DNA from: a virus
Length of the DNA: 34,228 nt
Virus record (IMG/VR): IMGVR_UViG_3300033995_000490
Location: 1 to 34,228 of that record
Reading direction: 5' to 3' (one strand)
The translations under genes were made by a program, and so were the position numbers. Each line of letters starts with the position of its first letter. Within the stretch, counting starts at the first letter, position 1. The notes below the pieces were generated by a model. The model worked only from the letters and a program-made list of their open reading frames with translations, was not told where the DNA came from and ran no database searches. Shown here in pieces: positions 1-34,228 of the stretch.

Positions 1-45
1 CAATCAAACCCGACACGCCTCTGACCTAAGCGCACTTTGTCGGGT
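1..45. repeat. 45-bp terminal direct repeat, left copy
   Basis: This segment is identical to 34184-34228. An exact repeat at the two contig ends is the usual sign of a circular or terminally redundant molecule, and it gives a unit length of 34,183 bases. The repeat ends exactly at the 3' side of the first hairpin of small RNA B. That could be chance from assembly overlap, or could mark a real end. Confidence 0.9.
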
Positions 46-100
46 CGTTTCAGCCAGTCGTAAGGTTTGTGGTTATCCTTGCGGCTGGCTTTGTTAATTC
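1..100 (+). ncRNA. Small structured RNA B (second of a tandem pair)
   Basis: This is about 95 nt of non-coding sequence homologous to the element at 34070-34171. Hairpin 1 pairs 8-15 with 38-45 (ACCCGACA/TGTCGGGT, 8 perfect pairs). Hairpin 2 pairs 53-65 with 77-89 (13 pairs, two G-T wobbles) around an 11-nt loop and is followed by CTTTGTTAATT, so it resembles an intrinsic terminator. Bases 60-82 (23 nt) are identical to 34136-34158, while the outer part of the stem differs from the other copy by compensatory changes. Its promoter would lie across the junction at 34173-34180, putting the RNA start near base 1. Function and family are unknown to me. Confidence 0.7.
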
Positions 101-262: not shown

Positions 263-291
263 TTGTAGTAACGAAATTACGTGTATATTTG
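263..291 (+). promoter_or_regulatory. Bacteroidota-type promoter, recombination/lysis operon
   Basis: The -7 element is TATATTTG at 284-291. TTG at 263-265 lies 21 bases upstream (start to start), inside GTTGTAGTAACGAA, which is nearly repeated at the 3155-3183 promoter. The predicted RNA starts in CGCACATTAAAACC, just ahead of the ATG at 314. Confidence 0.75.
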
Positions 292-15818: not shown

Positions 15819-16882
15819 GTTTTCTAATAACACGCAAGCCCGAAAAGCTATTTGCATCATCGGTAAAGTTCTCAAGATGGACAGCCCTTGCGAACCCGTA
15901 TCTTTTTGAATTAACCCGAAAGGATTACGGGGTTAACTCTACAGGAATACGTCCAGCATACCACCCAACTAAGCCAACCGTAAGAACTACAGGCGACCCG
16001 ATTACCGTACCTGTAGTTGTTTTAGCTGGTGACAGGATATACGTTAACAGCGGAGTGTATCAGGGCATTTATACTGTTTTTAGCGTAACGAATGAATACA
16101 TCGTTTTAGATACTCCTTACATTGGCGTAGGTGGCACTGGATGGGTTAACCTAGTGGATAGGCTGCAGAACTTCAAAGCGTATATTAAAATATACGATGG
16201 CGTTACCAATGTGCTGATAGATGAGTTAAGACTTTCGCCCGATAGCACTGGGCTACTAATTGCGGACGTATCGGGCATATTGCGCAAACAGTTGAACACT
16301 ACAGCCGACCCAACTCAGACGACAATCAACAAAGCGAATAAAGGTATTTCGGGGTCGTTTAGAATTGGATATGGAGCATCTTGGCTATACGTAAGCGAAG
16401 AAATAACTACGGATGTCACGTCACCTGAGGTAATTGTTAAAGAAAAGTACTACTGGCTTTCTGCTGCGAAACAGATAGATGGAAACATTGCTCTAGGCAT
16501 GAGTGGAATCGGTCAAAACCTAAAAGAATTTGTGCCTAAAAACTTGGCAAGTTCTGAGGCTAAGTTCTTAACGATGTTTGAGCGGCCTACCTATTTCGAT
16601 GGGTTTCCGTTTTTCCTTTCGTTTATTTACGATGAAGATTTTGACGGTATTACGCTCGAACGCCATCAACAAGATGCCGACATAAACGGTGTTGACGTAG
16701 GTGCGGAAACAGATAATACCTTAATCGTTAGCCAAAAGCATTACGTGAATAACATGATACTTCGCGCCCCGAATGCTGGCACAAAAATCATTAAGGCATG
16801 GCTTGAAGATGGCCCAGCTGAAACAGATGGGTATATTGGAGTGGGAGGCATACCAATCGGAGGGGCATCTAAATACAATTAA
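15815..16882 (+). CDS. Tail-associated structural protein candidate, 355 aa
   Basis: Beta-rich throughout, with many glycine/threonine turns (VRTTGDPITVPVVVLAGDRI, GIYTVFSVTNEY). No catalytic motif or membrane segment. The gene lies between connector-like and hub-like genes and just upstream of the tape measure. With the next gene it appears to form a conserved tail pair. The two could be halves of a single longer protein in other Bacteroidota phages, though that is from memory. Confidence 0.5.
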   Translation: MSFLITRKPEKLFASSVKFSRWTALANPYLFELTRKDYGVNSTGIRPAYHPTKPTVRTTGDPITVPVVVLAGDRIYVNSGVYQGIYTVFSVTNEYIVLDTPYIGVGGTGWVNLVDRLQNFKAYIKIYDGVTNVLIDELRLSPDSTGLLIADVSGILRKQLNTTADPTQTTINKANKGISGSFRIGYGASWLYVSEEITTDVTSPEVIVKEKYYWLSAAKQIDGNIALGMSGIGQNLKEFVPKNLASSEAKFLTMFERPTYFDGFPFFLSFIYDEDFDGITLERHQQDADINGVDVGAETDNTLIVSQKHYVNNMILRAPNAGTKIIKAWLEDGPAETDGYIGVGGIPIGGASKYN

Positions 16883-21914: not shown

Positions 21915-22147
21915 ATGAACTAATTTTAGAACTTGACAAAAGCGGTCAATTGTTTGAACTATTCAAAGGCGGCTTTATATCTTGGACGGTGCTAAGGGAT
22001 AAGGATATTTACCTCACCTATTTAGCCCATCGACAAACTGGATTAAATAAGACGCAAGCGGTCAAAAGAACGGCCGACCAATTTGACTTAAGCGACAACG
22101 TTGTATGGGTGGCTTTGCGTAAAATGAGCGCACCAATAAACGAATAG
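21911..22147 (+). CDS. Small helix-turn-helix protein, 78 aa
   Basis: Residues about 35-72 read as two helices and a recognition helix (YLAHRQTGLNKTQAVKRTAD, then F-D-L-S-D-N-V-V-W-V-A-L-R-K-M). The pattern recalls Mor-type and sigma-like HTH modules. Overlaps the tape measure stop by four bases. Small HTH proteins of this kind recur near Bacteroidota phage structural genes. It could regulate the late head genes downstream, but this is inference. Confidence 0.6.
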   Translation: MNELILELDKSGQLFELFKGGFISWTVLRDKDIYLTYLAHRQTGLNKTQAVKRTADQFDLSDNVVWVALRKMSAPINE

Positions 22148-22184
22148 TAAAAGCCTGTTTTGCCGTGTGGAATTTTGCCGCCAC

Positions 22185-23273
22185 ATGGAAGCGCACATTT
22201 ACATCGAAGGTCAAATTGGTTCATCTTACAAAGAAGATGGAACGGTAGACGTTAGTGGTGTTGAATTGCAAGACGTTATTTCTCAGGTTCGCAGAAATGC
22301 TGATGCCGAAAAGATTACTTGCCATATTACCAGTCAGGGCGGCTCAGTGGACTCAGGTCGCAAAATAGCCCAATACCTCGCATCACTTCCCAATGTGCAT
22401 ACGCTAGCTGAGGTTCAATGCGCTTCTATTGCTACGGAGATTCACTTGGCCGTACCTATTGAACGCAGGAAGGTAGCGGCAGGAACGTCCTACCTTATTC
22501 ACCAGCCTATGTTCTCATTTCAGCGCGGCATCGCATTGAACAAAGACGAATTGGCAAGTATGTCAACTGAAATAGGACATACTCAGGCCGAAATGGTGAG
22601 CAACTACGCAAAGGCTACAGGAATGGATAAGACCGCTCTTGAATTGCTTATGCAACAAGAAACAGCGTTAACCCCTGAGCAATGCGTGGAGTTTGGGTTC
22701 GCTTCTGAAATCGTAACAAATGCAACCGTAGCGGTTGCCCTAATTAAACCAAAACAATCAACTGAAATCATGGCAACATTGAAAGAAGAAATCGCAGCAA
22801 TGCGCATTCAAATCGCTTCGCTAATCGCGGGCAAACCTGTTAAAGCAGTATCATTAGATCTAACCACAATCGAGGGCGTTCCTGTAGTCGTAGTGACTGA
22901 GGAAGATATGCCTAAAGTTGGTGATGCGGTTATTGATGCTGAGGGCAATCCAGTACCCGATGCAACTCATAATTTCGAAGGGTTACAAGTAGTTACCGTT
23001 GATGGTGTTATTACTGAAATCATCGAAGTAGAGGTAGTTGACGTTGAGGCATTAGCTTCTGAATTGGCTACTTTGAAAGCAGAACGCGAAGCAGAACAAA
23101 CTGCATTTGCTGAATTGCAAAAGGAATTTGCTCAAGTGGCAAAATTGCAATCTACTTACAAACCAGCAGCACAACAAGTGGCTTTCAAAAAGCAAGTAGT
23201 TGATTCTGCAAAAGAGGTTTCAAGTTACTCAACAATTAAAGAAGCCCTTGCCGCGCGTAAGGCTAAAAAATAA
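22185..23273 (+). CDS. ClpP-like capsid maturation protease with C-terminal scaffold region, 362 aa
   Basis: Residues 1-190 form a ClpP/S14-type serine protease: oxyanion-loop G52-G53-S54, nucleophile S81 (QCAS81IA) and H106 (YLIH106QP). By alignment from the conserved E-F-G the third triad residue would be a glutamate (MQQETAL), not aspartate. Residues about 196-362 are acidic and helical at both ends and resemble a scaffolding domain. ATG 22185 gives MEAHIYIEG, a normal ClpP-like start; a GTG at 22167 is possible. It would process head proteins during maturation and lies just upstream of the capsid gene. Confidence 0.85.
   Translation: MEAHIYIEGQIGSSYKEDGTVDVSGVELQDVISQVRRNADAEKITCHITSQGGSVDSGRKIAQYLASLPNVHTLAEVQCASIATEIHLAVPIERRKVAAGTSYLIHQPMFSFQRGIALNKDELASMSTEIGHTQAEMVSNYAKATGMDKTALELLMQQETALTPEQCVEFGFASEIVTNATVAVALIKPKQSTEIMATLKEEIAAMRIQIASLIAGKPVKAVSLDLTTIEGVPVVVVTEEDMPKVGDAVIDAEGNPVPDATHNFEGLQVVTVDGVITEIIEVEVVDVEALASELATLKAEREAEQTAFAELQKEFAQVAKLQSTYKPAAQQVAFKKQVVDSAKEVSSYSTIKEALAARKAKK
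22770..23273 (+). CDS. Nested scaffold protein from internal start, 167 aa
   Basis: In-frame ATG at 22770 separates the protease from its C-terminal tail. It is preceded by AACTGAAATC, and GAAATCATGNCAA recurs almost exactly at the 24431 start (AAAGAAATC-ATG-CCAA). The product begins MATLKEEIAAMRIQI and ends in a helical, lysine-rich tail. This is the layout of lambda C/Nu3, where an internal start makes free scaffold. Predicted, not proven. Confidence 0.5.
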   Translation: MATLKEEIAAMRIQIASLIAGKPVKAVSLDLTTIEGVPVVVVTEEDMPKVGDAVIDAEGNPVPDATHNFEGLQVVTVDGVITEIIEVEVVDVEALASELATLKAEREAEQTAFAELQKEFAQVAKLQSTYKPAAQQVAFKKQVVDSAKEVSSYSTIKEALAARKAKK

Positions 23274-23302
23274 TAACTAACCAATCAAACAAATCAAATC
23301 AA

Positions 23303-24406
23303 ATGGCAATCCTTAACCCAGCAGACTTAGCCTTTAATGGCGAAGAAATAAAAGCCCTTTCTGAGGGTATCATGGAGGACGTGTACGCGAAACCCGCGAT
23401 GACCGAATTCCTTACTATCTACACAGGCATCAAAGCAAAGAAGCAAATCGCTTTTCTTGGAATTTTGTCAGGTTTGGTAGGACAAAAACACGATACTTCT
23501 AGCTGTTCTCCAATAGAGAATGATGCGGCTATCGAAAACACAGAAAAGTTTTGGGAGCCTGCTTACATCGATGACCGTTTTAGCGAGTGTTTTGATAACC
23601 TACTTGAAACCTTCTTTGTTTACGGTTTGAAAAATGGTGTTCAAAAGGGAGACCTTACCAATACTGACTTCGCTCTTTTCTTTGTTGAGCGTTACCAAGA
23701 TGCTATTGCTGAAATGTTCCACCGTCTTGTATGGTTTGGTGACACAGCAGCAGATGACACCGCTGGTGGTGGTATATTTGTAACGGCTGGTTTCGTTGCC
23801 AAGCGTTGGGATGCTTTCGATGGTATTTGGAAACAATTGTTTGCAATCGTTACCGCTACTCCAGCACGTAGAACTAGCGACTTGACTACCAAAAATGCAC
23901 AGTCTACTTTTGCATTGCAAGCGTTCAATTCAACGGATACAACTAACCGAGTTGTAACCAATACGCTTCAAAACTTGGTATTCAATTCTGATTTCCGTCT
24001 ACGCGACAAGGCTGATAAAATCATCATCGTTACTCAGTCAGTAGCTGACCAATATGTACGCGAATTGGAAGCTGGTGCAAACAACGGTCTTTCTGTAGCA
24101 TTCGAGTACATTCAAGACGGGGTGATGGTAATTAAGCGCATGGGTGTTACTATCTACGCTTATAGCTTTTGGGATCGCATGATTCAAGGCTACCAACGTA
24201 ATGCTGCAAGTGAGTTGAACTACTACCTTCCACACCGCGCTTTGTTGACTACTAAAGCTAACATTGCTTTCGGAACAGAAGAAGAAGGTACGCTTTCAGA
24301 AGTAGACGTTTTTGTTGACAAAAAAGACAAGAAAACATACTTTGACTTTGGTGCTAACTTAGACGCAAAAGTGTTGCAAGACTACTTGGTTCAAGTTGCT
24401 TATTAG
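23303..24406 (+). CDS. Major capsid protein, 367 aa
   Basis: Mostly assigned from context: it directly follows the protease/scaffold and precedes the tail-tube candidate. It has a long unstructured A-rich leader (23274-23302) and ends just upstream of the tail-tube gene. Size fits an HK97-fold capsid protein. Sequence features fit too: a helical opening (MAILNPADLAFNGEEIKALS), a central segment (FWEPAYIDDRFSECFDNLLE), many beta strands and no membrane or catalytic motif. Codon choice shifts here to GCT, CGT and GGT, as expected for a very highly expressed protein. Confidence 0.8.
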   Translation: MAILNPADLAFNGEEIKALSEGIMEDVYAKPAMTEFLTIYTGIKAKKQIAFLGILSGLVGQKHDTSSCSPIENDAAIENTEKFWEPAYIDDRFSECFDNLLETFFVYGLKNGVQKGDLTNTDFALFFVERYQDAIAEMFHRLVWFGDTAADDTAGGGIFVTAGFVAKRWDAFDGIWKQLFAIVTATPARRTSDLTTKNAQSTFALQAFNSTDTTNRVVTNTLQNLVFNSDFRLRDKADKIIIVTQSVADQYVRELEAGANNGLSVAFEYIQDGVMVIKRMGVTIYAYSFWDRMIQGYQRNAASELNYYLPHRALLTTKANIAFGTEEEGTLSEVDVFVDKKDKKTYFDFGANLDAKVLQDYLVQVAY

Positions 24407-24430
24407 TATTAACCTTTAACAAAAGAAATC

Positions 24431-25006
24431 ATGCCAATTTGCGATAATATCACAGCAGGAATAGCCTATGATTGCGCATATCCTCCGACAGGGGGTGTGA
24501 ACGATAGGCTTATCCTTTTGAACTATGCCGATATTGACGGTAATGTTACTTATGATAACACTAACCCGATAATTGTTACCAACATCACGCTCACAGCCCC
24601 AGCAGTTGGGTATGAGTACGAAGGTGTAAACAACTCAAATGAGCCACGTTCGGCAATGGTTAAAGGCCGTTACGTTAACGGATATGACCATGAGGTGAGA
24701 TTCAAATGCTTTGACAATAGCCCAGATGCAAAATTGCAACTAGGCAAATTAGACGGGGCGTTGGTAGTGGCAATAGTTCAGAATAACAGGAAGGGACTAG
24801 ACGGTAATTCAGCTTTTGAAATCTACGGTCTTGAAACAGGACTTCGGTTACAGGAATTGGAGCGTATTTTAGCCGATGCTGAAACACAAGGTGCATATAA
24901 CCTTTTGATTCGCAACGATGAAATTAGCCGCCCTTCAAGTTTGCCGCACACATTGTGGGATACCGATTATGCTACTACTCTTGCGCTGGTAAACGGCCTA
25001 GTGTAA
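24431..25006 (+). CDS. Major tail tube protein candidate, 191 aa
   Basis: Beta-rich protein starting MPICDNITAGIAYDCAYPPT. Directly after the capsid gene and immediately followed by a strong terminator, so it is likely co-expressed with capsid at high level. Size and strand content (RLILLNYADIDG, IVTNITLTAP, FKCFDNSP) fit a tail tube subunit. A capsid decoration or head protein is the main alternative. Confidence 0.6.
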   Translation: MPICDNITAGIAYDCAYPPTGGVNDRLILLNYADIDGNVTYDNTNPIIVTNITLTAPAVGYEYEGVNNSNEPRSAMVKGRYVNGYDHEVRFKCFDNSPDAKLQLGKLDGALVVAIVQNNRKGLDGNSAFEIYGLETGLRLQELERILADAETQGAYNLLIRNDEISRPSSLPHTLWDTDYATTLALVNGLV

Positions 25007-25022
25007 TCTAATCAATTGAAAT

Positions 25023-25065
25023 AAAAAAAGGCGGTGCGCGTGGAAACATGACACCGCTTTTTTTT
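25023..25065. terminator. Strong, symmetric intrinsic terminator
   Basis: A7-G-GCGGTG (25023-25036) pairs with CACCGC-T8 (25052-25065), 14 pairs including one G-T wobble, around a 15-nt loop. A and T runs on both sides make it work in either direction. It closes the capsid/tail-tube unit. Confidence 0.88.
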
Positions 25066-25067
25066 TG

Positions 25068-25075
25068 TAAATTCG
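25068..25075 (+). promoter_or_regulatory. Candidate promoter immediately after the terminator
   Basis: TAAATTCG, a one-base variant of TAnnTTTG, lies just before the ATG at 25080, implying a leaderless mRNA. The 11-mer GTAAATTCGCA is shared with 1676-1686. No clear TTG upstream, because the terminator stem occupies that space. Confidence 0.45.
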
Positions 25076-25079
25076 CAGC

Positions 25080-25619
25080 ATGACACCACTAGAATTAAAA
25101 GCATTACTCGAAGAGGTCAGCCCTTTAGTTGTTGTCCCCAAAGGTCAAATTGATAAGTCGCACCCAGTTGTGGTGAAATTCCTAGCGGTTCACAAAGAAT
25201 TAACGGGAAAAAAGGTAGGGCATGGAACTTGTCAAAGTTGCATATTGGATGCTTTATTTGAATTAAAGGGGCTAACCGAAACACAGTTAAAATTGATGAC
25301 GATGGAACGCAAATACAAACTAAAACCGAATGCGCTGGTTTACTTTAATCACGCTCATTATACGGTCGCAAACATTACTGACGATGTAGCTATAGAGATG
25401 GTAAAAGCCAACTCAGGACATTCACGCTCATTTGTAAATGGCGAGGCTTTGCTTGCCGAATTAGATGGCGTTGAAAAGCCAAAGGGTAAAAGAGGTAGAA
25501 AGGCTAAGGTAGTTGCGCCCGAAATTACCGAAACCGTAACGGAGGAAGTAACGGATGTTAACGCTGATAATCAATCGGGCGAAGTTGCCGAAACTATAAC
25601 TACGAAGGTTACTGAATAA
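25080..25619 (+). CDS. Hypothetical virion-region protein with AT-hook-like motif, 179 aa
   Basis: Two halves: a helical N-terminal part with C-x-x-C (HGTCQSCILDAL) and a histidine (NHAHYTV), and a low-complexity acidic tail after residue 137. Between them lies KPKGKRGRKAK, an AT-hook-like basic motif. First gene after the terminator, before portal. Might bind packaged DNA or help portal assembly, but no family is recognised. Confidence 0.6.
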   Translation: MTPLELKALLEEVSPLVVVPKGQIDKSHPVVVKFLAVHKELTGKKVGHGTCQSCILDALFELKGLTETQLKLMTMERKYKLKPNALVYFNHAHYTVANITDDVAIEMVKANSGHSRSFVNGEALLAELDGVEKPKGKRGRKAKVVAPEITETVTEEVTDVNADNQSGEVAETITTKVTE

Positions 25620-26935
25620 TGAGAATCAACATCGCCAAGATTCAAAAGCGCATAATTCGTAGGGACGACAAGTCTTTAGGCATTATCAACTATGACATTG
25701 ATAACGCATATCCTCAAAGGGTTGTGGACATTGTTAACGGGTCGGGCGTTGCGATCACTTGCATTGACATCTATTTCAAATTCATCAACGGCACAGGCTT
25801 TGCCGATGCTGCTTTAGGCGCAACGGTGGTAGATGGCGACCGATTAACCGCTGACAAGTTGCTTCGCAGATGTGCCTATGATTTCGCGATGCATGGAGGG
25901 TTTGCTATCCATAAAAATTACGACATAACAGGAAAGGAAACAACTTCTAGCCATGTTCCTTTTTCGCATTGTAGAATAGGAATTGATAGGGAAAGAAAGC
26001 CCGATTCAATTGCGGTCTATAATGACTGGGGGCGCGAAATTGACAAGCGAATAGATAAAGCAAAGATTGACTTTATAGAACTTTACAATCCCGACCCCGA
26101 AATAGTCAAAAAGCAAATAGAAACGGCTGGTGGAATTGAATACTACAAAGGTCAAATCTATTATCACGGGGCTGGTGGTGACGTTGCCTATCCGTTGTCG
26201 CATTTTGATAGCGAATTAGAGGACATCGAAACCGACAGCCAAATAAAGCTATTTAAGTATCGCAATATAAGCGGTTCGTTTATGGCTTCGCACATGATGG
26301 TCAGGTACGGCCAAGCTGAGGGCGATAATAACAACTCAGACGGCCTAGTAGAGCAGCTAAAGGAATTCCAAGGCGCGGACAATTTTAACCGCTTAATGCT
26401 TTTGGACATTGACACGCCTGAGCAAAAACCTGAGTTAATCCCGTTTACGCATTCAAATAACGACAAGCTATTTGAGTATCATGAGAAAAGCACGCAGGAC
26501 AATATCCGAAAGGTGTTTGCAATTCCAACGGTGTTTTTAGATGCGGTTGCTGGTTCGCTTGGTTTGTCTGCTCAATTGGATGATGCGGTTTCGTTCTATA
26601 ATCGCATGACTCAGGACGAAAGAGCAATTTTAGAGGAAACATTTGACTGGTTATTATTCGATACTTTTGGAGGCAGTTACAAAATTAAACCTCTGACAAT
26701 GGCCGACATAACAGAAAGGAATTTAGATGCGGAAACGGCCGACAAGGTTGCCAACGCTCAGGCTGAACTTCGTGGATCTGTTGGTGGTGTTACGGCATTG
26801 ATTACATTGCAACAGTCGATAAGCGCAGGACAAACGAGCGTGCCTGCTGGTATTGCTATGCTTCGCGAGATTTATGGCTTTAGTAATGAAATAGCACGCG
26901 AAATGTTAGCAGGCGTAACAGAACAAACGGCATGA
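25619..26935 (+). CDS. Portal protein, 438 aa
   Basis: Forms the dodecameric vertex through which DNA is packaged. Early segments (YPQRVVDIVNGSGVAITCID, then YFKFINGTGF) and the central helical stem resemble siphophage portals. The late region (FAIPTVFLDAV then QLDDAVSFYNRMTQDERAIL) is the portal wing/crown region seen in relatives. Length is typical. It lies downstream of capsid, whereas portals usually precede protease and capsid. Confidence 0.8.
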   Translation: MRINIAKIQKRIIRRDDKSLGIINYDIDNAYPQRVVDIVNGSGVAITCIDIYFKFINGTGFADAALGATVVDGDRLTADKLLRRCAYDFAMHGGFAIHKNYDITGKETTSSHVPFSHCRIGIDRERKPDSIAVYNDWGREIDKRIDKAKIDFIELYNPDPEIVKKQIETAGGIEYYKGQIYYHGAGGDVAYPLSHFDSELEDIETDSQIKLFKYRNISGSFMASHMMVRYGQAEGDNNNSDGLVEQLKEFQGADNFNRLMLLDIDTPEQKPELIPFTHSNNDKLFEYHEKSTQDNIRKVFAIPTVFLDAVAGSLGLSAQLDDAVSFYNRMTQDERAILEETFDWLLFDTFGGSYKIKPLTMADITERNLDAETADKVANAQAELRGSVGGVTALITLQQSISAGQTSVPAGIAMLREIYGFSNEIAREMLAGVTEQTA

Positions 26936-27447
26936 TAAACCTTATCAACATAACGGATTTTACTGAAAACAAGTTTCTGACTCAAAACCTTGACGACCGC
27001 GATATTGACCCCATAATTACGGAGGCTCAGGAGTTTGACATAAAGCCCATAATTGGAGCGGCTATGTACTTGGACATGATGAACAACCTAACGGCAGTGA
27101 AATACGTTGACTTGCTGGATGGCAAGATATACACTCCAAATGGTGAGTCAGATGCCATCTATTTTTCGGGGTTAAAAATGGCGTTGAAATACTATGTCTA
27201 CGCTCGCCTTTTGGTAGTGAATGGAGTTAAGTCTACGAATAGCGGTTTTGTTCAAAAGACGTTAGAAAATAGCGAAAGGATAAGCGGAACGCAGCTAACT
27301 CAAATGATAGCACAAACTCGCAGCGGTGCTAAGGTTTACGAAACGGAGGTAAGGGATTTTCTTTGCAATTACTCAGCGGTTTATCCTCTTTATTGTGAGG
27401 GGGTTCGCAAAAATAATGGTCACGGTTTTAGAATGAAAGCGATATGA
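26932..27447 (+). CDS. Head-tail connector-like protein (DUF6712-type), 171 aa
   Basis: All-helical (DFTENKFLTQNLDDRDIDPI, then ALKYYVYARLLV), resembling the adaptor proteins that follow portal or capsid genes in Bacteroidota phages. Overlaps portal by four bases. Would extend the portal channel toward the tail. Confidence 0.6.
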   Translation: MINLINITDFTENKFLTQNLDDRDIDPIITEAQEFDIKPIIGAAMYLDMMNNLTAVKYVDLLDGKIYTPNGESDAIYFSGLKMALKYYVYARLLVVNGVKSTNSGFVQKTLENSERISGTQLTQMIAQTRSGAKVYETEVRDFLCNYSAVYPLYCEGVRKNNGHGFRMKAI

Positions 27448-28184
27448 GCGCGTTAAATGATTTGGATGGAATGGTGCTACGGCAGGAGGTTTATCCACCT
27501 ATGCCAACCAAGAATGCGGAGTTAACATTCACCGAATGGGACGACCGTGTTATTGATATTTATCGCGTAATTCAAGACGTGGTGAATGGCGACAACGTGG
27601 ATGCGTATAATCCTGCTACCACATACGATGGGACGTCCTCAGATGTATACTTAAAATTCGTGGGCTATAATTCGCGCATTTGGCAAGCGGTTTTCGCTGG
27701 CACATTCTCAGGCGAAACTCCTGCTGAGGGTATTTACTGGACTCAGGTAACTTTGGCTCAAATGCTGCCAAATGTTTTGAAGCTGGCCGAAATTGGTAGC
27801 GGTGCAAGCCAATCGGTTAAAACGGTTAAATTGCATATTCCTACTGCACAAGTATTAACCTTAAACACAACGCCAGTACCCTTTGGAATTACCGTTCCAG
27901 CTGGATATTATGCACAATTATTGAGTGCGCAAATGAAAGCGACTTACGGGGGAACACCTTACGCTACCAACGTCACTCTTGAGATAGGCTTTCCAAGCGT
28001 TAAAGCTATTTTTACTGATAATGTTTTGGGCTTTAATTCAAACGCTTTTGTAAATATGGATTTTGAAAGTTCGGGAGCACAAGTGTCTGCAACGGATGTT
28101 GTAGTTTCCGTTAATGCTGGCAACCCAACAGCTGGCAATAGTGACATAGATTTATACCTTACTTATACGCTTGTTGAATTATGA
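27444..28184 (+). CDS. Tail/appendage protein with carbohydrate-binding-like module, 246 aa
   Basis: After a helical opening, residues about 50-102 read as a compact module (Y-N-P-A-T-T-Y-D-G, then RIWQAVFAGTFSGETPAEGI and YWTQV) resembling CBM5/12-type sugar-binding domains. The C-terminal half is beta-rich. It starts the distal tail gene cluster. Surface-glycan contact is inferred from the module only. Confidence 0.6.
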   Translation: MSALNDLDGMVLRQEVYPPMPTKNAELTFTEWDDRVIDIYRVIQDVVNGDNVDAYNPATTYDGTSSDVYLKFVGYNSRIWQAVFAGTFSGETPAEGIYWTQVTLAQMLPNVLKLAEIGSGASQSVKTVKLHIPTAQVLTLNTTPVPFGITVPAGYYAQLLSAQMKATYGGTPYATNVTLEIGFPSVKAIFTDNVLGFNSNAFVNMDFESSGAQVSATDVVVSVNAGNPTAGNSDIDLYLTYTLVEL

Positions 28185-28546
28185 GCATAGTTAGAAAGTC
28201 CGACAGGGTAATTCAGGTTACGGTTACGGGAGGCAATGGAACGCCCGTAACTATTTCAACGCTTGCCGATTTGGAAATTTTAGCCTACCAATTTCCGAAG
28301 CGTATCATTCAAAGATGGCTGCTTTCAGATAGTGAAATAACAACGGTTAACAATGCTGCTGGTATTGTGAGCGTTAATTTTGACCGAGCAAATACGCAAA
28401 CGCTAAACTTTAAGAACGATCCTTGTTTATTGGAGGTGGTGGCATCATTTACGGATATTGATTTTGAAGGTGGTATTAAGCGCGATGTGGCCACAGGAAT
28501 AGAGTTATCAATAGTTGAGGACAGTCCAACTGCTTATGAGCAATGA
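28181..28546 (+). CDS. Tail appendage protein, 121 aa
   Basis: Beta-rich small protein (RVIQVTVTGGNGTPVTISTL), with no recognised motif. Its strand pattern (L-E-V-V-A-S-F-T-D-I-D) resembles small fibre-base or baseplate-wedge proteins. Overlaps both neighbours by four bases. Confidence 0.5.
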   Translation: MSIVRKSDRVIQVTVTGGNGTPVTISTLADLEILAYQFPKRIIQRWLLSDSEITTVNNAAGIVSVNFDRANTQTLNFKNDPCLLEVVASFTDIDFEGGIKRDVATGIELSIVEDSPTAYEQ

Positions 28547-30174
28547 TAACGGCAACCGCGATACTTACGGAAACGATAGTAGTTACCGCATCTTTAGGCG
28601 GAAACGTATGCCAGCCAGCGACATATACGCTTGTTGATGAAGATGCCAATGTGCTAGACACGGGTTCAATTATTTCGGGCGGTGCAGAAACCATAATTGC
28701 ACCCGATGGTACTGTTTTACGCGATGGGTTACCTTATGGCTCAGTATTAAGCGGAGGCACAATAGACGTATTGAGCGACCCGTGTTTGGATGCGACCGTT
28801 GAAAATTCAGACGTTACCTTTACTCAAGATATTGTTTCGGGTGCAACATACGTTTTATACGATTACGAATTTGAGTTTCAAGACCCTGATGGCGTTGTTA
28901 TTTCTACTGAAATAGTACCAGCTATGTCTGCATCAACGTTTAATTTTCCAACAGGATTTGGTGCTGATGCTATTTTACAACGCAACGGAACGCAAATTAA
29001 AACCATTGCAAGCGGTGCTACGTTTAACCTAATTACCAAATTAGACGGGGCTGCAAACAACGGCACATGGGATGGAGTAGATACCTTAGACTTTACAAGC
29101 GACTGCCCACCAATCCCAAGCGTATCACTCGCAGTAAGCGACACAACGCCTGACGTAGGGCAAGTGATTACACTAACCGCCACACCTACCAATATAACCC
29201 CAACAGGTTACACCTTCTTTACTTATGACGGGGTTACTATTCAGTTAATAATTCAGCAAGCTGGCGCGGTTTATAATTGGACGGTCAACCGTTCGGGTAG
29301 TTACGATGTGTATGTAATGGCAAGCGATGGCACAGATTCAGTAAGTGATTTTGTGCCAATAGTTGCGACCCAAACATACTTAGCCGTTACCACCAACTAC
29401 ATGAATGCGGTAGGTATTCCTGACAATGGTAGTGCAAGTATTTACGGGGTAACTAATAACGCTTGTTGGGTAGCTTGGGAGAATTTCTTTCAAACCCTTA
29501 CCACAAACAGCCTACTTTCAAAGCACTACTATATTAGGGGAATGATGGGAAGCGCGGCAACGGCAGCTAACTACAAATTCAATGCAATAAACCCATTAGA
29601 TACTGATGCAGCATATCGCGCTACCTATTCGGGCGGAGTAACATTTAGCGCATTAGGCACACAAGGTAACGGTTCAAACGGTTACGCTGATTCAAAATTC
29701 AACGATACCGCGGCTGGGGTTACGCGAACTGATTTTGGAATTACGATGTATTCAAGAACGGATAGCACAGCAAGTGGTGTAGATATGGGTATTGCTGGGT
29801 TAAGTTGGGTATGGCTTTGGATTAAGCAAAGTGCGTCCGTAGACTTTGCAGGAATTTATGACGATGCCAATTTTAACGGCAACTATGCGGCTAATTCTAA
29901 AGGTGTGTTTAGTGTAAATCGCGACCCATCGGAAGCTAATAGACAAAGGTTATATCGCAATGGTGCTAACATCGGTACACGTAGTGGCCACGCAGTTCAG
30001 CCATTAAACAACCTTAGCATATTTGAGATGGCAAGAAATATTGGCGTACCCGCTACTTATTCGTCACGTCAATACACTTACTTCGCTGCGCATACAGGTA
30101 TGACAGCCGCACAAACCGCGATATATCACACGGCAATTGAAACACTTCAAACCGCATTAAATAGACAAGCATAA
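28543..30174 (+). CDS. Tail fibre / receptor-binding protein 1, 543 aa
   Basis: Modular adhesin. The N-terminal 140 residues are beta-rich and probably attach to the tail. Residues 144-186 form a short module, 192-264 an Ig-like module (SVSLAVSDTTPDVGQVITLT), and about 275-543 a lectin-like C-terminal domain that ends AIYHTAIETLQTALNRQA. Both internal modules recur in the gene at 30389. This is the likely receptor-binding region. Divergent C-termini behind shared modules suggest domain swapping. Confidence 0.7.
   Translation: MITATAILTETIVVTASLGGNVCQPATYTLVDEDANVLDTGSIISGGAETIIAPDGTVLRDGLPYGSVLSGGTIDVLSDPCLDATVENSDVTFTQDIVSGATYVLYDYEFEFQDPDGVVISTEIVPAMSASTFNFPTGFGADAILQRNGTQIKTIASGATFNLITKLDGAANNGTWDGVDTLDFTSDCPPIPSVSLAVSDTTPDVGQVITLTATPTNITPTGYTFFTYDGVTIQLIIQQAGAVYNWTVNRSGSYDVYVMASDGTDSVSDFVPIVATQTYLAVTTNYMNAVGIPDNGSASIYGVTNNACWVAWENFFQTLTTNSLLSKHYYIRGMMGSAATAANYKFNAINPLDTDAAYRATYSGGVTFSALGTQGNGSNGYADSKFNDTAAGVTRTDFGITMYSRTDSTASGVDMGIAGLSWVWLWIKQSASVDFAGIYDDANFNGNYAANSKGVFSVNRDPSEANRQRLYRNGANIGTRSGHAVQPLNNLSIFEMARNIGVPATYSSRQYTYFAAHTGMTAAQTAIYHTAIETLQTALNRQA
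28972..29100 (+). repeat. Fibre linker module, copy 1 (43 codons)
   Basis: Encodes ILQRNGTQIKTIASGATFNL and then TKLDGA. Homologous and equal in length (129 nt) to 30437-30565, and related to 30590-30715. Confidence 0.85.
29116..29334 (+). repeat. Ig-like module, copy 1 (73 codons)
   Basis: Encodes PSVSLAVSDTTPDVGQVITL onward. Same length as 30731-30949 and highly similar in protein, with many silent differences, so the duplication is old or under selection. Confidence 0.85.
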
Positions 30175-30386
30175 TGGTGATACTTGGAGAATTAACAGAA
30201 TTACAGGCGCAAGAGTTAACGGGTCAATTGTACGCACCCGACTTGTACTTCAACCCTATTCAAGTTGAAGGCGTTTGGTACATTTCGATTGAAGAAATGC
30301 AAGGATGCGTTAACCCTATTTTTGATTGGGTTAAAACGCTGCCTATCAAAATGGTTGAAATACCAATCCCAATTGAAAATAAATAA
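30174..30386 (+). CDS. Small protein between fibre genes, 70 aa
   Basis: Acidic, begins MVILGELTELQAQELTGQLY and contains VEGVWYISIEEM. Position between two fibre genes suggests a fibre chaperone or minor tail part. No family recognised. Confidence 0.55.
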   Translation: MVILGELTELQAQELTGQLYAPDLYFNPIQVEGVWYISIEEMQGCVNPIFDWVKTLPIKMVEIPIPIENK

Positions 30387-30388
30387 AA

Positions 30389-31765
30389 ATGGCGAATGTT
30401 AAAGTAATAGTAAAAGCGAACGGTTGTTTGGATTCTGTGCTTCAACGTAATGGAACACAGATTAAAACTATACCATCTGCCGCCACGTTCGATTTAATAA
30501 CCAAACTAGATGGTGTTGTTGAAGATGGTACTTGGGACGGAGTAGACACTTTAGACTTTACCTCCGCTGCCTGTTCACCCGTCACCTTTCAGATTAACGC
30601 AGTCAACAAGGAATCCATTACAAGTGGTTCTACATTTAACCTAATCACAAAATTAGACGGGGCGGTTAATTCGGGTAGCTACGATGCGCCTACGGATACG
30701 CTTAGTTTCACGAGTGCATCAACACCAGTGCCATCGGTATCACTTGCAGTAAGCGATACAACGCCTACAACTGGCCAAATAGTTACACTAACCGCGACTC
30801 CAACAAATATAACGCCAACCTCATATGTATTCTTTACTTATGATGGAGCGACTATTGAGTTCATAATTGAGCAAGCTGGAGCGGTGTATAACTGGACTGT
30901 TAACAGGGCAGGAGCTTATGATGTTTACGTACTTGCGACAGATGGAACACTTGAAGTATACGGAACTGTTGGAATGATTAGTACCAGTGGTTATGTTCTT
31001 GACTTGATAACACCACAACCCGTTTGGGCTGTAAGTCTTAGAAGATTAAGAGCTGGATATACTGGGGATGCCGCAGTAGTTAGGCGGTCAAGTGATAACG
31101 CTGTATTGTCTATTGGATTTGTTGGTGAAAATTTAGACTCCGCAGCCCTTACAGCATTTGTGGGCGTTGGCAATGGCTTTACGGCCACTCTTTACAATCA
31201 AATGAATACTGGCAACAATGCAACACAATCTACAGCTGGAAACCAACCAACGCAAGTTGTTAGCGGTACGATTCAAATACTTGGTGGTAAACCAACAATG
31301 GTGTTTGACGGTACTTCAAGCCAAATGTCTATGGTATCTGATATTACATTTGCGCATGGATTTGTAGTTGCTCGAAAAGCGTTAAATAATAATGTTGTGC
31401 AATTTGTATTAGGTGGTACTGCGCAGGGATTAGTTTTTGGCGGTTTAGTATCTCCGCAATTTCAAAACATAACTATTTCAACGCCTGGGGGATTCTTGCA
31501 TAGCACGGTGGACAATAACGTTAGACATCAAGTTTCATTTAAAATGGGTGTTGCTGGTGCAGGTAGATTAAGAGTGGACGGCACAACTCAAGCCACAGGT
31601 ACAACTTCGGCATCAATGGTAATAAGTAGAATTGGAACACGACCAGATGCTACTGTGTTGGCTCATATTGGGGATTTTTCGGAATCCATACTTTACGCCT
31701 CGGTATTATCGGATGCCAATGAATTAATAATAGAAAACAACCAAATAGCATATTATTCGATATGA
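30389..31765 (+). CDS. Tail fibre / receptor-binding protein 2, 458 aa
   Basis: Begins with two copies of the linker module (residues 17-59 and 68-109), then an Ig-like module (115-187). The C-terminal domain (about 210-458) starts VWAVSLRRLRAGYTGDAAVV followed by R-R-S-S-D-N-A and NGFTATLYNQ. This resembles the arabinofuranosidase B/LamG-like jelly-roll domain often found in Bacteroidota phage adhesins. No catalytic residues were identified, so glycan binding rather than cleavage is assumed. Confidence 0.72.
   Translation: MANVKVIVKANGCLDSVLQRNGTQIKTIPSAATFDLITKLDGVVEDGTWDGVDTLDFTSAACSPVTFQINAVNKESITSGSTFNLITKLDGAVNSGSYDAPTDTLSFTSASTPVPSVSLAVSDTTPTTGQIVTLTATPTNITPTSYVFFTYDGATIEFIIEQAGAVYNWTVNRAGAYDVYVLATDGTLEVYGTVGMISTSGYVLDLITPQPVWAVSLRRLRAGYTGDAAVVRRSSDNAVLSIGFVGENLDSAALTAFVGVGNGFTATLYNQMNTGNNATQSTAGNQPTQVVSGTIQILGGKPTMVFDGTSSQMSMVSDITFAHGFVVARKALNNNVVQFVLGGTAQGLVFGGLVSPQFQNITISTPGGFLHSTVDNNVRHQVSFKMGVAGAGRLRVDGTTQATGTTSASMVISRIGTRPDATVLAHIGDFSESILYASVLSDANELIIENNQIAYYSI
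30437..30565 (+). repeat. Fibre linker module, copy 2 (43 codons)
   Basis: Encodes VLQRNGTQIKTIPSAATFDL. Matches 28972-29100 codon for codon in length. Confidence 0.85.
30590..30715 (+). repeat. Fibre linker module, copy 3 (42 codons, diverged)
   Basis: Encodes QINAVNKESITSGSTFNLIT and then KLDGA. Same core as copies 1 and 2 with a changed beginning. Confidence 0.7.
30731..30949 (+). repeat. Ig-like module, copy 2 (73 codons)
   Basis: Encodes PSVSLAVSDTTPTTGQIVTL onward. Paralogous to 29116-29334. Confidence 0.85.
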
Positions 31766-31962
31766 GTTTTTTAAGATATACAACCGAGCAACAAGCGGTA
31801 GAGCGAAACATAGTTGAAGCTATCCGTAGGGGTTGCGACATGGTTACTACGCGCTATTGGTGGCCTATGGTTCAAGATGGTAGCGATTATCTATTAATGG
31901 TTGGTGATGGCGATGGACTTAGTGATATTGAATTAACGCAAATGGAAGATGAAATTCAGTAG
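31762..31962 (+). CDS. Small hypothetical protein after fibre 2, 66 aa
   Basis: Helical start (EQQAVERNIVEAIRRGCDMV), then a W-W-rich strand and an acidic end. Overlaps fibre 2 by four bases and the holin-like gene by 14. Possibly a fibre-associated protein. Confidence 0.5.
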   Translation: MSFLRYTTEQQAVERNIVEAIRRGCDMVTTRYWWPMVQDGSDYLLMVGDGDGLSDIELTQMEDEIQ

Positions 31963-32179
31963 CCACTACATTCGTTTCACACTTGCATTTATCGTCTACA
32001 TTAGCGCGATGGGTTACGTGTTCGCAGCTTCATTTTTGACCATACCAACGGAGAACCAACGCACTATTGATACGGCCATCGGGTTTGCGTTTGGTATCGT
32101 GACATCGGTTGCATCATATTATTTCGGCAGCTCACAGGGTTCTGCCGACAAAGACAAACGAAACAATGGCACACTTTAA
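31949..32179 (+). CDS. Holin-like membrane protein, 76 aa
   Basis: Two predicted membrane segments (about 9-30, FTLAFIVYISAMGYVFAASF; and 42-59, AIGFAFGIVTSVASYYFG) joined by a short polar turn, with a charged tail (SSQGSADKDKR). The D-T-x-x-G-F-x-x-G-x-x-T...Y-x-x-G-S-S-x-G-S ending is common in small holin-like proteins of Bacteroidota phages. It could supply the membrane hole needed by the endolysin at 2049, although that gene lies in the early operon. Confidence 0.6.
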   Translation: MKFSSHYIRFTLAFIVYISAMGYVFAASFLTIPTENQRTIDTAIGFAFGIVTSVASYYFGSSQGSADKDKRNNGTL

Positions 32180-32492
32180 GGCAATGGAAGCAGAGGGAAT
32201 AGGCGCAATTATTACGGCAATCGGAGGACTTGCCGGCGGTGCGTGGGGCGGTATTCGATTGGGTAAGAACCAGCAACTCGAAGAAGTCAAAGGGCTTATT
32301 ACGCAATATAAGGAAGCTAACGAATTTACCAAAGGCGAGATGGCCGACATTAAAGAAAGTCTAAGCGAAACAAGGCAACTGCACAGGGAATGTGAGGAAG
32401 GTCGTAAGGGCTTGGAGGTAAAAGTAGACGGACTTCAGAACGAAATGAGACGAATGGAGACGATTATACTCAAACACATTAAAGCAGACTAA
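32166..32492 (+). CDS. Membrane/coiled-coil protein, possible lysis or tail accessory, 108 aa
   Basis: After MAHFKAMEAEG comes a glycine-rich hydrophobic segment (about 12-30, IGAIITAIGGLAGGAWGGI), then about 75 residues of coiled coil. Chosen start ATG 32166 overlaps the holin-like gene by 14 bases. Looks like a membrane-anchored helper of lysis. Confidence 0.55.
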   Translation: MAHFKAMEAEGIGAIITAIGGLAGGAWGGIRLGKNQQLEEVKGLITQYKEANEFTKGEMADIKESLSETRQLHRECEEGRKGLEVKVDGLQNEMRRMETIILKHIKAD

Positions 32493-32605
32493 TGGCTAAA
32501 ATCATCGTAGGGGGCAAATTCAAGCCCCGTGTTAAGCGCAAATTGAGAAGGCATAGTAAGTATCGGGCGAAGGGATTTAAGGCGTACAGGGGGCAAGGAA
32601 GATAA
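32492..32605 (+). CDS. Very basic 37-residue protein
   Basis: MAKIIVGGKFKPRVKRKLRR then a further K/R-rich stretch ending YRGQGR. About 14 of 37 residues are K or R. Starts in the previous stop (TAATG). Similar tiny basic proteins occur, as I recall, in other Bacteroidota phages, which suggests conservation. It could bind DNA or RNA. Confidence 0.6.
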   Translation: MAKIIVGGKFKPRVKRKLRRHSKYRAKGFKAYRGQGR

Positions 32606-32608
32606 TAC

Positions 32609-32616
32609 TATATTTG
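32609..32616 (+). promoter_or_regulatory. Candidate leaderless promoter
   Basis: TATATTTG followed by TCGC and then ATG at 32621. The close spacing predicts a leaderless mRNA for the phosphoesterase gene. No TTG at the usual distance upstream. Confidence 0.5.
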
Positions 32617-32620
32617 TCGC

Positions 32621-33628
32621 ATGGCATTATCGGGCGAAGTCGTAAAGGAAGCATTAGCCAAATGGCCTGACTTGCCATCGCTTACATTAGCCCGTAAGTT
32701 GCATGAAGATAACCCCGAAGTATTTACAAGCGTTGGGGCTGCAAGGTGTTCAATTCGCTACTATCGCGGCACACATGGCAAAGTAAGCAGAAAGCAAAGG
32801 AAACTCGAAAAACCACAACCAGCAATGCAAGCAACCGCAATGGGAATACCGAATCCTTTCTACTTACCCGAAAGCGATGAAGTAGAATGGGAACCGTACA
32901 TCATACCGCCATCGGTAACGCGGTTACTTATCCTTTCAGATATACACATCCCATACCACAACGTTAACGCGATTACGTTAGCCCTTCAATACGGCAAGGA
33001 TAGGAACGTGAACGGCATAATGTTAAACGGGGATATTCTCGATTTTTACGGGCTGTCTACATTTGAGAAAGACCCAAGAAAAAGACGGTTTTCTGCAGAG
33101 TTAGAAATGGGTAGGCAGTTCCTTTCAATACTCCGTAAAGAGTTTGACGGTGTGCCAATCTATTACAAGCTTGGCAACCATGAGGAAAGATACGAACGCT
33201 ATTTGCGAATCAAAGCGCCCGAACTTTTGGACGTTGCCGAATTTAGGATGGACGTTCTTTTGAAGTTTGGCGAAATTGGAGTTGAGTTAATAGACGACAA
33301 ACGCATTATCAAATTTGGCAATTTAAACATTATGCACGGCCACGAATTTGGCAAGTCGGTATTTAGCCCTGTTAACCCAGCACGTGGGCTATACATGAGG
33401 GGCAAAGAGAATTGCATAGCTGGGCATAATCACCAAACAAGCAGCCACGTTGAACCAAGCATGAACGGCTATGTGGTCAACACGTGGTCTACAGGATGCC
33501 TTTGTGAGCTGCACCCTTCCTATATGCCCATCAACAAATGGAATCTTGGATTTGCCTATGCCGAACGCGAACAAGATAACGGGTTTACAGTTCACAATCA
33601 TACCATCATTAAGGGCAAAATTCGATGA
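32621..33628 (+). CDS. Calcineurin-like metallophosphoesterase, 335 aa
   Basis: All five motifs are present: D107-I-H109, GD138 (LNGDILDFYG), G-N186-H187-E, H239-G-H241 and G-H269-N-H271. Residues 1-75 form a separate basic helical domain with a possible helix-turn-helix (ALAKWPDLPSLTLARKL), so it may act on DNA, RNA or a nucleotide. Similar fusions occur in phages. Substrate unknown. Likely transcribed from its own promoter. Confidence 0.9.
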   Translation: MALSGEVVKEALAKWPDLPSLTLARKLHEDNPEVFTSVGAARCSIRYYRGTHGKVSRKQRKLEKPQPAMQATAMGIPNPFYLPESDEVEWEPYIIPPSVTRLLILSDIHIPYHNVNAITLALQYGKDRNVNGIMLNGDILDFYGLSTFEKDPRKRRFSAELEMGRQFLSILRKEFDGVPIYYKLGNHEERYERYLRIKAPELLDVAEFRMDVLLKFGEIGVELIDDKRIIKFGNLNIMHGHEFGKSVFSPVNPARGLYMRGKENCIAGHNHQTSSHVEPSMNGYVVNTWSTGCLCELHPSYMPINKWNLGFAYAEREQDNGFTVHNHTIIKGKIR

Positions 33629-33825
33629 GCCTACGCTTTGAGCAGCAAGCATCTTTGCTAATCACACGGGAGTTTTTGCTCGACCTACTGAATACCAGCA
33701 CACGACCAAAGACCGTTAAGGACTTAAAGGAACGGGCGCGAAGGTGTCTAAGGCACTACCCACCATTGGATGTGGATGGCAGTCCTATCTTTTCCAGGGA
33801 CGGATTTGGGCGCGATGCGAAATAA
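33625..33825 (+). CDS. Small conserved-looking protein, 66 aa
   Basis: MSLRFEQQASLLITREFLLD, followed by RPKTVKDLKERARRCLRHYP and an SPIFSRDGFG ending. The R-P-K-T-V-K...C-L-R-H-Y-P pattern recurs in small Bacteroidota phage proteins as I recall. Overlaps the phosphoesterase stop. Role unknown. Confidence 0.65.
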   Translation: MSLRFEQQASLLITREFLLDLLNTSTRPKTVKDLKERARRCLRHYPPLDVDGSPIFSRDGFGRDAK

Positions 33826-33843
33826 ATAGGCGCGAAGTCAGGG

Positions 33844-33861
33844 TATAGGCTTACTTTTTAG
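33844..33861. repeat. 18-bp direct repeat, copy 1
   Basis: TATAGGCTTACTTTTTAG, repeated exactly 33 bases further at 33877-33894. Possible protein-binding sites. Confidence 0.85.
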
Positions 33862-33876
33862 CGGTAAAAGTCAACT

Positions 33877-33894
33877 TATAGGCTTACTTTTTAG
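33877..33894. repeat. 18-bp direct repeat, copy 2
   Basis: Exact copy of 33844-33861. Confidence 0.85.
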
Positions 33895-34044
33895 GTTGCA
33901 AATTGAAACCCTTTCAAATGTCCGCTAATTTCGGACGGTTAATCATACCTTAACGGGTATACAAGCGGCTAATGTAGCGGATTTCATGCGGTTTATGACG
34001 TTATCGGGTATAAATATGCGTTCATTATTTATGCGTGTTCATAT

Positions 34045-34067
34045 TTTGTGAACGCTTAGTATATTTG
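34045..34067 (+). promoter_or_regulatory. Promoter of small RNA A
   Basis: TATATTTG at 34060-34067. The TTTG at 34045-34048 is only 15 bases upstream and lies within the inverted repeat GCGTTCA/TGAACGC (34018-34055), so this promoter may be regulated by a protein bound there. Confidence 0.55.
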
Positions 34068-34069
34068 TG

Positions 34070-34171
34070 GCAACAGTACCCGAACGCATACCGTCAGAAC
34101 TGCGTACCAGTCATGGGTCGTTTACTTAGCCCGTTGTAAGGTTTGTGGTTATCCTTGCAACGGGTTTCTTT
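34070..34171 (+). ncRNA. Small structured RNA A (first of a tandem pair)
   Basis: Homologue of the element that runs across the junction into 1-100. Hairpin 1 begins ACCCGA at 34078 and closes at TGGGT (34114-34118), with an inner ACGCA/TGCGT stem. Hairpin 2 pairs 34130-34141 with 34153-34164 (12 pairs, one wobble) around an 11-nt loop and is followed by TTTCTTTTT, so it is a convincing intrinsic terminator. Compared with copy B, pair 34132-34162 is C-G against A-T and pair 34135-34159 is T-A against C-G, both compensatory. No open reading frame. Confidence 0.72.
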
Positions 34172-34180
34172 TTATCTTTG
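34155..34180 (+). promoter_or_regulatory. Promoter of small RNA B
   Basis: TATCTTTG at 34173-34180 followed by CG, with TTG at 34155-34157 (18 bases upstream). The -33 element sits in the 3' arm of RNA A's terminator and the spacer in its T tract, so the two units are packed with no spare bases. Confidence 0.6.
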
Positions 34181-34183
34181 CGC

Positions 34184-34228
34184 CAATCAAACCCGACACG
34201 CCTCTGACCTAAGCGCACTTTGTCGGGT
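34184..34228. repeat. 45-bp terminal direct repeat, right copy
   Basis: Identical to 1-45. See the left copy for interpretation. Confidence 0.9.

Follow-up and report, generated by a model that had tools for sequence, protein, structure and literature searches.

Tandem orphan RNAs resembling AbiF antitoxins at the genome junction of a phage: candidate RNA counter-defence

Known antitoxin RNAs and the phage locus

The abiF RNA is both the leader RNA and the antitoxin of AbiF, a widespread HEPN RNase toxin that has been proposed as an ancestor of Cas13 (PMC12373285, PMC12737573). The AbiF antitoxin RNA of C. difficile acts in trans by protein binding, and stem mutations that preserve pairing keep its function, so that the structure of the stem matters and not its sequence (PMC12373285). 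Phages are known to encode RNAs that imitate the RNA component of a host defence, both for type III antitoxins and for CRISPR repeats. Pseudo-ToxI of phage PhiTE is a phage-borne mimic of a type III-like antitoxin that occurs without the toxin (PMC3475682), and Racrs are small RNAs by which phages reproduce, away from the native locus of a host defence nuclease, the RNA that this nuclease works with (PMC10651486). In the lytic cyanophage S-CREM1 an orphan abiF sRNA is annotated between tRNA genes; it was reported only as an Rfam hit with no function proposed (PMC9964418).

Here we describe a phage locus with two RNAs of this kind. The window, i.e. the whole stretch of DNA that was analysed, comprises 34,228 nucleotides. 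Its last 45 bp perfectly repeat its first 45, as expected for the overlap of a circular assembly, which implies that the genome is a circle of 34,183 bp. The original prediction placed two tandem units of about 100 nt here, the second running through the junction, and both were located as claimed, 107 nt apart and with predicted Bacteroidota-type promoters. They lie between the late genes, which end with a metallophosphoesterase and a small ORF, and an early operon, whose genes downstream of unit 2 are a 95-aa ORF, ERF and Gp157. A megablast search of positions 20000-34228 against the INPHARED phages gave no match. The features are:

34060..34067, + strand: predicted -7 promoter element TATATTTG of unit 1, from the sequence, with a TAnnTTTG-like counterpart at the same place in related phages
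34078..34118, + strand: 5' hairpin of unit 1, a class-2 AbiF antitoxin-like RNA by model R1 matches, viral prevalence and a covarying outer stem
34130..34164, + strand: A-type 3' hairpin of unit 1 with loop UUUGUGGUUAU, followed by a T-rich tract at 34165-34173; terminator-like
34173..34180, + strand: predicted -7 element TATCTTTG in the promoter of unit 2; shares sequence with the unit-1 T tract
34184..34228, no strand: 45-bp terminal repeat, identical to 1-45
34192..34228 (= 9..45 at the other contig end), + strand: 5' hairpin of unit 2, class-1 abiF RNA homologue by its RF03085 match and pair counts
52..90, + strand: A-type 3' hairpin of unit 2, followed by a weak T tract
284..291, + strand: -7 promoter-like element TATATTTG of the early operon, separate from the RNA units

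Both units follow one plan, in which a TAnnTTTG element is followed by a 5' hairpin closed by ACCC...GGGT, by GGGTCGTTT and by a terminator-like 3' hairpin. TAnnTTTG-like sequences correspond to the Bacteroidota-type -7 promoter consensus. Single-strand folding gave z values of -1.9 for unit 1 and -3.1 for unit 2. The inner motif of the 3' hairpin, a 23-mer shared by the two units, occurs exactly twice in the window and in none of 100 shuffles, and is present in 6 viral contigs. Related loci, fetched via two neighbouring proteins, provided 13 distinct unit-1 and 10 unit-2 stretches, partial copies of the window's own region counted. Most related contigs carry both units in tandem, and four (L011, L018, L022 and L274) carry unit 1 only.

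The original prediction had centred on the 3' hairpin with its identical loop and had taken covariation within one genome as strong evidence for a selected RNA structure. The reported outer-stem changes (C-G to A-T, T-A to C-G and T-A to T-G) are correct and all keep pairing, and the compensation extends to relatives: across 11 related 3' hairpins every cell pairs (100%), and in three pairs both sides have changed. The structure stood, while two copies per genome are weak evidence for it; the strong covariation comes from relatives, chiefly in the 5' hairpins, which are the informative part of the units.

Two classes of AbiF antitoxin-like RNA

The 5' hairpin of unit 2 (9-45) aligned with the Rfam abiF RNA model RF03085 over 37 of 37 positions with every pair kept and scored 32.7 bits, a match obtained at a relaxed threshold, as the gathering cut-off of the family is 37 bits. 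Several relatives scored 23.8-31.2 bits and others gave no match. The hairpin has the consensus structure of the family, with an outer stem of 6 bp, a bulged A, an inner stem of 3 bp, a loop of 11 nt and a 3' bulge of 6 nt. In an alignment of 15 class-1 sequences from unit 2, hosts and other phages, 97.8% of cells pair, compared with 19-39% in slid versions, and 17 cells are changed on both sides with pairing kept. Bacteroidota class-1 leaders carry TTTGCACCAAYAGAACC...GGGTCGTTT, the same plan as the phage units; such RNAs were found in 8 of 395 Bacteroidota genomes, six of them with AbiF downstream. Unit 2 itself is not upstream of an abiF gene, as Abi_2 is absent from the whole window. Taken together, alignment and pairing strongly indicate that unit 2 is a class-1 abiF RNA homologue and, since its score stays below the gathering cut-off, a diverged relative rather than a curated member. 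The earlier statement that no Rfam-like family is recognisable was thus wrong for unit 2, which matches abiF RNA end to end. Further Rfam matches (SNORD127, MIR478, anti-hemB etc.) were below cut-off and were judged to be chance.

Unit 1 was recognised by no model in the Rfam search. Its 5' hairpin consists of an outer stem, a CGC/GCG inner stem and a 3' bulge UACCAG. A covariance model, R1, was built from ten phage unit-1 hairpins only and run on the 395 Bacteroidota genomes, which makes the search a blind test, because no information on AbiF entered the model. It returned 11 strong matches at 29-39 bits, and in 10 of these AbiF lies directly downstream, within about 80 nt. Two of the AbiFs behind class-2 RNA matched the Pfam model Abi_2 at 1e-53 and 6e-56; in L247 the AbiF has an internal deletion, and in L239 the contig ends just past the AbiF start. 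The eleventh match (L248) belongs to a tandem pair of class-2 and class-1 RNA that precedes a type I restriction gene. Host and phage class-2 copies agree in the inner stem (CGC/GCG), in the AGAAC of the loop and in the UACCAG of the 3' bulge. Their outer stems vary in sequence and pair nonetheless. We regard unit 1, on strong comparative grounds, as a probable member of a second AbiF-antitoxin-like class that has no Rfam model.

The AbiFs behind class-2 RNA form one fully supported clade apart from the class-1 AbiFs, which suggests that units 1 and 2 would each be directed at a different toxin clade; the class-2 AbiFs sampled are close relatives of each other, so that this reading is based on a limited range of sequences. 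The outer stem of unit 1 is not an uninterrupted 7-bp stem, as window-type phages have a bulge of 1-2 nt on its 3' side that other phages and hosts do not have, and the named fold lies 0.6 kcal/mol above the predicted minimum. Due to the bulge and the suboptimal fold, unit 1 may be a weak antitoxin or may fit an AbiF that was not sampled.

Compared with the described RNAs RF03085, RCd22 and AbiFr, unit 2 shows the same full-length alignment, the same pairs, the bulged A and the conserved letters of loop and 3' bulge, and unit 1 shows the same architecture. RCd22 likewise has two motifs and acts in trans (PMC12373285). The phage RNAs differ from them in that no AbiF gene was found in the phage, in the score of unit 2 below the gathering cut-off, in the invisibility of unit 1 to Rfam and in the terminator-like hairpin that each phage RNA has of its own.

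Orphan RNAs in phages and their possible role

The core abiF RNA pattern matched in 32 viral contigs and 31 bacterial genomes. The bacterial genomes with class-1 RNA encode Abi_2 (PF07751) in 25 of 31 cases, often starting just downstream of the RNA. In contrast, Abi_2 was found neither in the window together with 49 phage records (43 with class-1 or class-2 RNA) nor in 50 class-2-bearing phage records of up to 326 kb; among all 95 phage records other than the window that were searched, 89 of them with these RNAs, there was none, whereby many records are fragmentary and the gene could lie outside them, and the profile could miss a too diverged AbiF. As Abi_2 was detected in bacteria, the search is able to find AbiF, which argues that phages carry the RNA without the toxin. 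Isolated phages, lytic ones included, also have class-1 RNA in unannotated gaps, among them T7-like Aeromonas phages and Salicola phage CGphi29.

The class-2 pattern occurs in at least 119 viral stretches, two or three of which (e.g. L307 and L365) look like chance matches. Among the class-2 matches listed, 112 were readable and represent 70 distinct sequences. The search pattern left the outer stem out; in the matches listed, a mean of 6.37 of 7 outer-stem positions pair in the phage RNAs, compared with 4.28 with shuffled partners, and in 61 class-2 sequences from beyond the window family, 3-5 standard pair types occur at every one of the first five positions. Such covarying outer stems point to selection in phages without a toxin in cis. 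Many class-2 RNAs adjoin tRNA genes of large phages. Where they lie beside tRNA genes (L272, L277, L293 and L332; L282, L304 and L336) they are perhaps released by tRNA processing, as may be compared with S-CREM1.

Orphan RNAs were also found at two bacterial loci, L394 and L397, and thus roles without AbiF are possible. In L394 (G133:C23:108000-127500), near position 16484, a class-2 and then a class-1 RNA, in the tandem order of the phage units, immediately precede the HsdR gene of a type I restriction system, and AbiF was not found in the 19.5 kb. At Halomonadaceae loci such as L208, L212, L219 and L222 the ORFs that come after an abiF RNA look like HsdS. Near position 3547 of L397 an orphan class-1 RNA resembling unit 2 lies beside a MuA/MuB-like transposition pair and serine-recombinase-like ORFs, so that non-phage mobile elements may carry class-1 RNA as well.

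We propose that both units are free-standing orphan RNA antitoxins that neutralise two host AbiF clades in trans, and we consider this reading quite likely. While the identity of the 5' hairpins as homologues of AbiF antitoxin RNAs is strongly indicated, their anti-defence function is inferred. The host RNA sits in the leader of the AbiF gene, whereas in the phage, which has no toxin gene, each RNA comes with a host-type promoter and a terminator-like hairpin to itself. AbiF acts as a suicide enzyme in bacterial defence against viruses; as the phage has no AbiF gene, the RNAs are probably made to keep the host enzyme off. The host polymerase would transcribe both RNAs from the gap between the late and early operons, and the RNAs would accumulate and bind AbiF in trans. 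The RNase would then be held inactive at a time when infection would otherwise free AbiF, and abortive infection would fail. Expression in infection, binding to AbiF and benefit to the phage are accordingly presumed steps of this proposal. In the original prediction, the selected RNA structure and, among the roles listed, the nuclease decoy come near to it, the 5' hairpins being homologous to AbiF-restraining RNAs; the results lent no support to a host regulator, an RNA for packaging or replication, or an RNA anti-CRISPR.

Other explanations have to be weighed against this. The site between late and early operons and the terminator-like hairpins would suit tandem promoter-terminator elements that insulate the two operons or act by attenuation, their AbiF-like fold being incidental ancestry, and the host RNA also attenuates its own operon (PMC12373285). 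However, the conserved part consists of AbiF-specific loop and bulge letters that a terminator does not need, the RNAs have quite different locations in other phages, and the early operon has a promoter-like element of its own; we consider transcription punctuation unlikely. It is quite unlikely that the RNAs are functionless leaders left behind by a lineage that once had full AbiF modules and lost the toxins. Prophages can carry AbiF with its RNA (PMC12373285) and orphan RNAs occur in bacteria too, but the orphans are spread over more than 100 viral stretches of different lineages, in gaps at tRNA and capsid genes, and covary strongly, whereas decayed leaders would lose pairing. The window family moreover retains both classes with promoters and swaps the terminator hairpins.

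An RNA anti-CRISPR, in which the 3' hairpins mimic CRISPR repeats, has a precedent in the Racrs (PMC10651486), and the A-type hairpin of unit 1 has Cas13b-like GUUG...CAAC ends. Since unit 2 and other relatives do not keep these ends, we rejected a Cas13b-repeat mimic; models of the A- and B-type hairpins gave no repeat-like host match in 296-395 Bacteroidota genomes, and in hosts the 5' hairpins matched AbiF leaders instead of CRISPR arrays. We consider anti-CRISPR very unlikely. Rather than silencing AbiF of the host, the RNAs might enlist or direct it, or a different HEPN RNase, to attack RNA of the host or of rival phages. This would be in line with the proposed ancestry of RNA-guided Cas13 (PMC12737573), with the variable 3' hairpins as possible cargo. 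Characterised AbiF RNAs inhibit and do not guide (PMC12373285), though, and no guide-like variable single strand was seen in the units, which makes steering extremely unlikely.

If the units are orphan AbiF antitoxins as proposed, they would be a natural counterpart of pseudo-ToxI. The latter has another RNA fold, concerns the toxin ToxN and arose in escape mutants, whereas the RNAs described here are fixed in many natural phages; the function of pseudo-ToxI has been shown, while that of the phage AbiF-type RNAs is deduced. Racrs differ in being mimics of CRISPR repeats rather than matches to an AbiF leader RNA, and S-CREM1 has the class-1 RNA alone, with no class-2 RNA and no tandem pair. Within the openly accessible journal literature, no paper was found that proposes orphan phage abiF RNAs as anti-AbiF agents. 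On our best reading, the new elements would be natural and widespread phage RNA antitoxins against AbiF and a second antitoxin class absent from Rfam. Should orphan AbiF antitoxins be widespread in phages, natural phages would be under real selection from AbiF, mimicry by RNA would be a common counter-defence and not a rarity, and the orphan RNAs would be a sequence signature that tells the AbiF clade a given phage encounters. Class 2 supplies ready toxin-RNA pairs for tests of binding and structure.

Exchangeable 3' hairpins

The 3' hairpins are swapped between lineages. They are either of A-type, with the loop UUUGUGGUUAU and the compensatory stem changes described above, or of B-type, with an asymmetric internal loop, or an extra hairpin is present, which is then inserted between the 5' domain and the terminator. 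No convincing host counterpart was found with the A-type model R2 in 296 Bacteroidota genomes or with the B-type model R3 in 395, the top match of R3 lying in an apparent protein-coding stretch. The units might be modular RNA counter-defence cassettes built by shuffling, with two classes of AbiF antitoxin decoy and with A- and B-type 3' hairpins as decoys for further RNA-regulated nucleases; we put this forward tentatively and regard it as possible but doubtful.

An antisense role of the A-type loop UUUGUGGUUA against early leaders (TAACCACAAA in L010, L018 and L022) was considered and not adopted, because the window offers no more than 7 nt of complementarity, which the relatives do not conserve. 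AACCA or ACCAC, which are complementary to the A-type loop UGUGGUU, lie upstream of 10 of 45 starts in the window (e.g. 314 and 3410), compared with 4.9% of background 27-mers; this may be a habit of translation starts or may reflect antisense pairing.

The B-type layout consists of an outer stem, UUUAG/AUUG, a 7-bp hairpin, a single G and the other side of the outer stem. It is found in L002, L003, L010, L013, L015, L018, L023 and L028-L030, the exact pattern being present in 8 viral contigs, and it turns up as a terminator, as an insert and, in a separate small-RNA gene, as the 5' hairpin. In an unrelated group of phages (L282, L304 and L336), class-2 RNA is followed by hairpins similar to the B-type.
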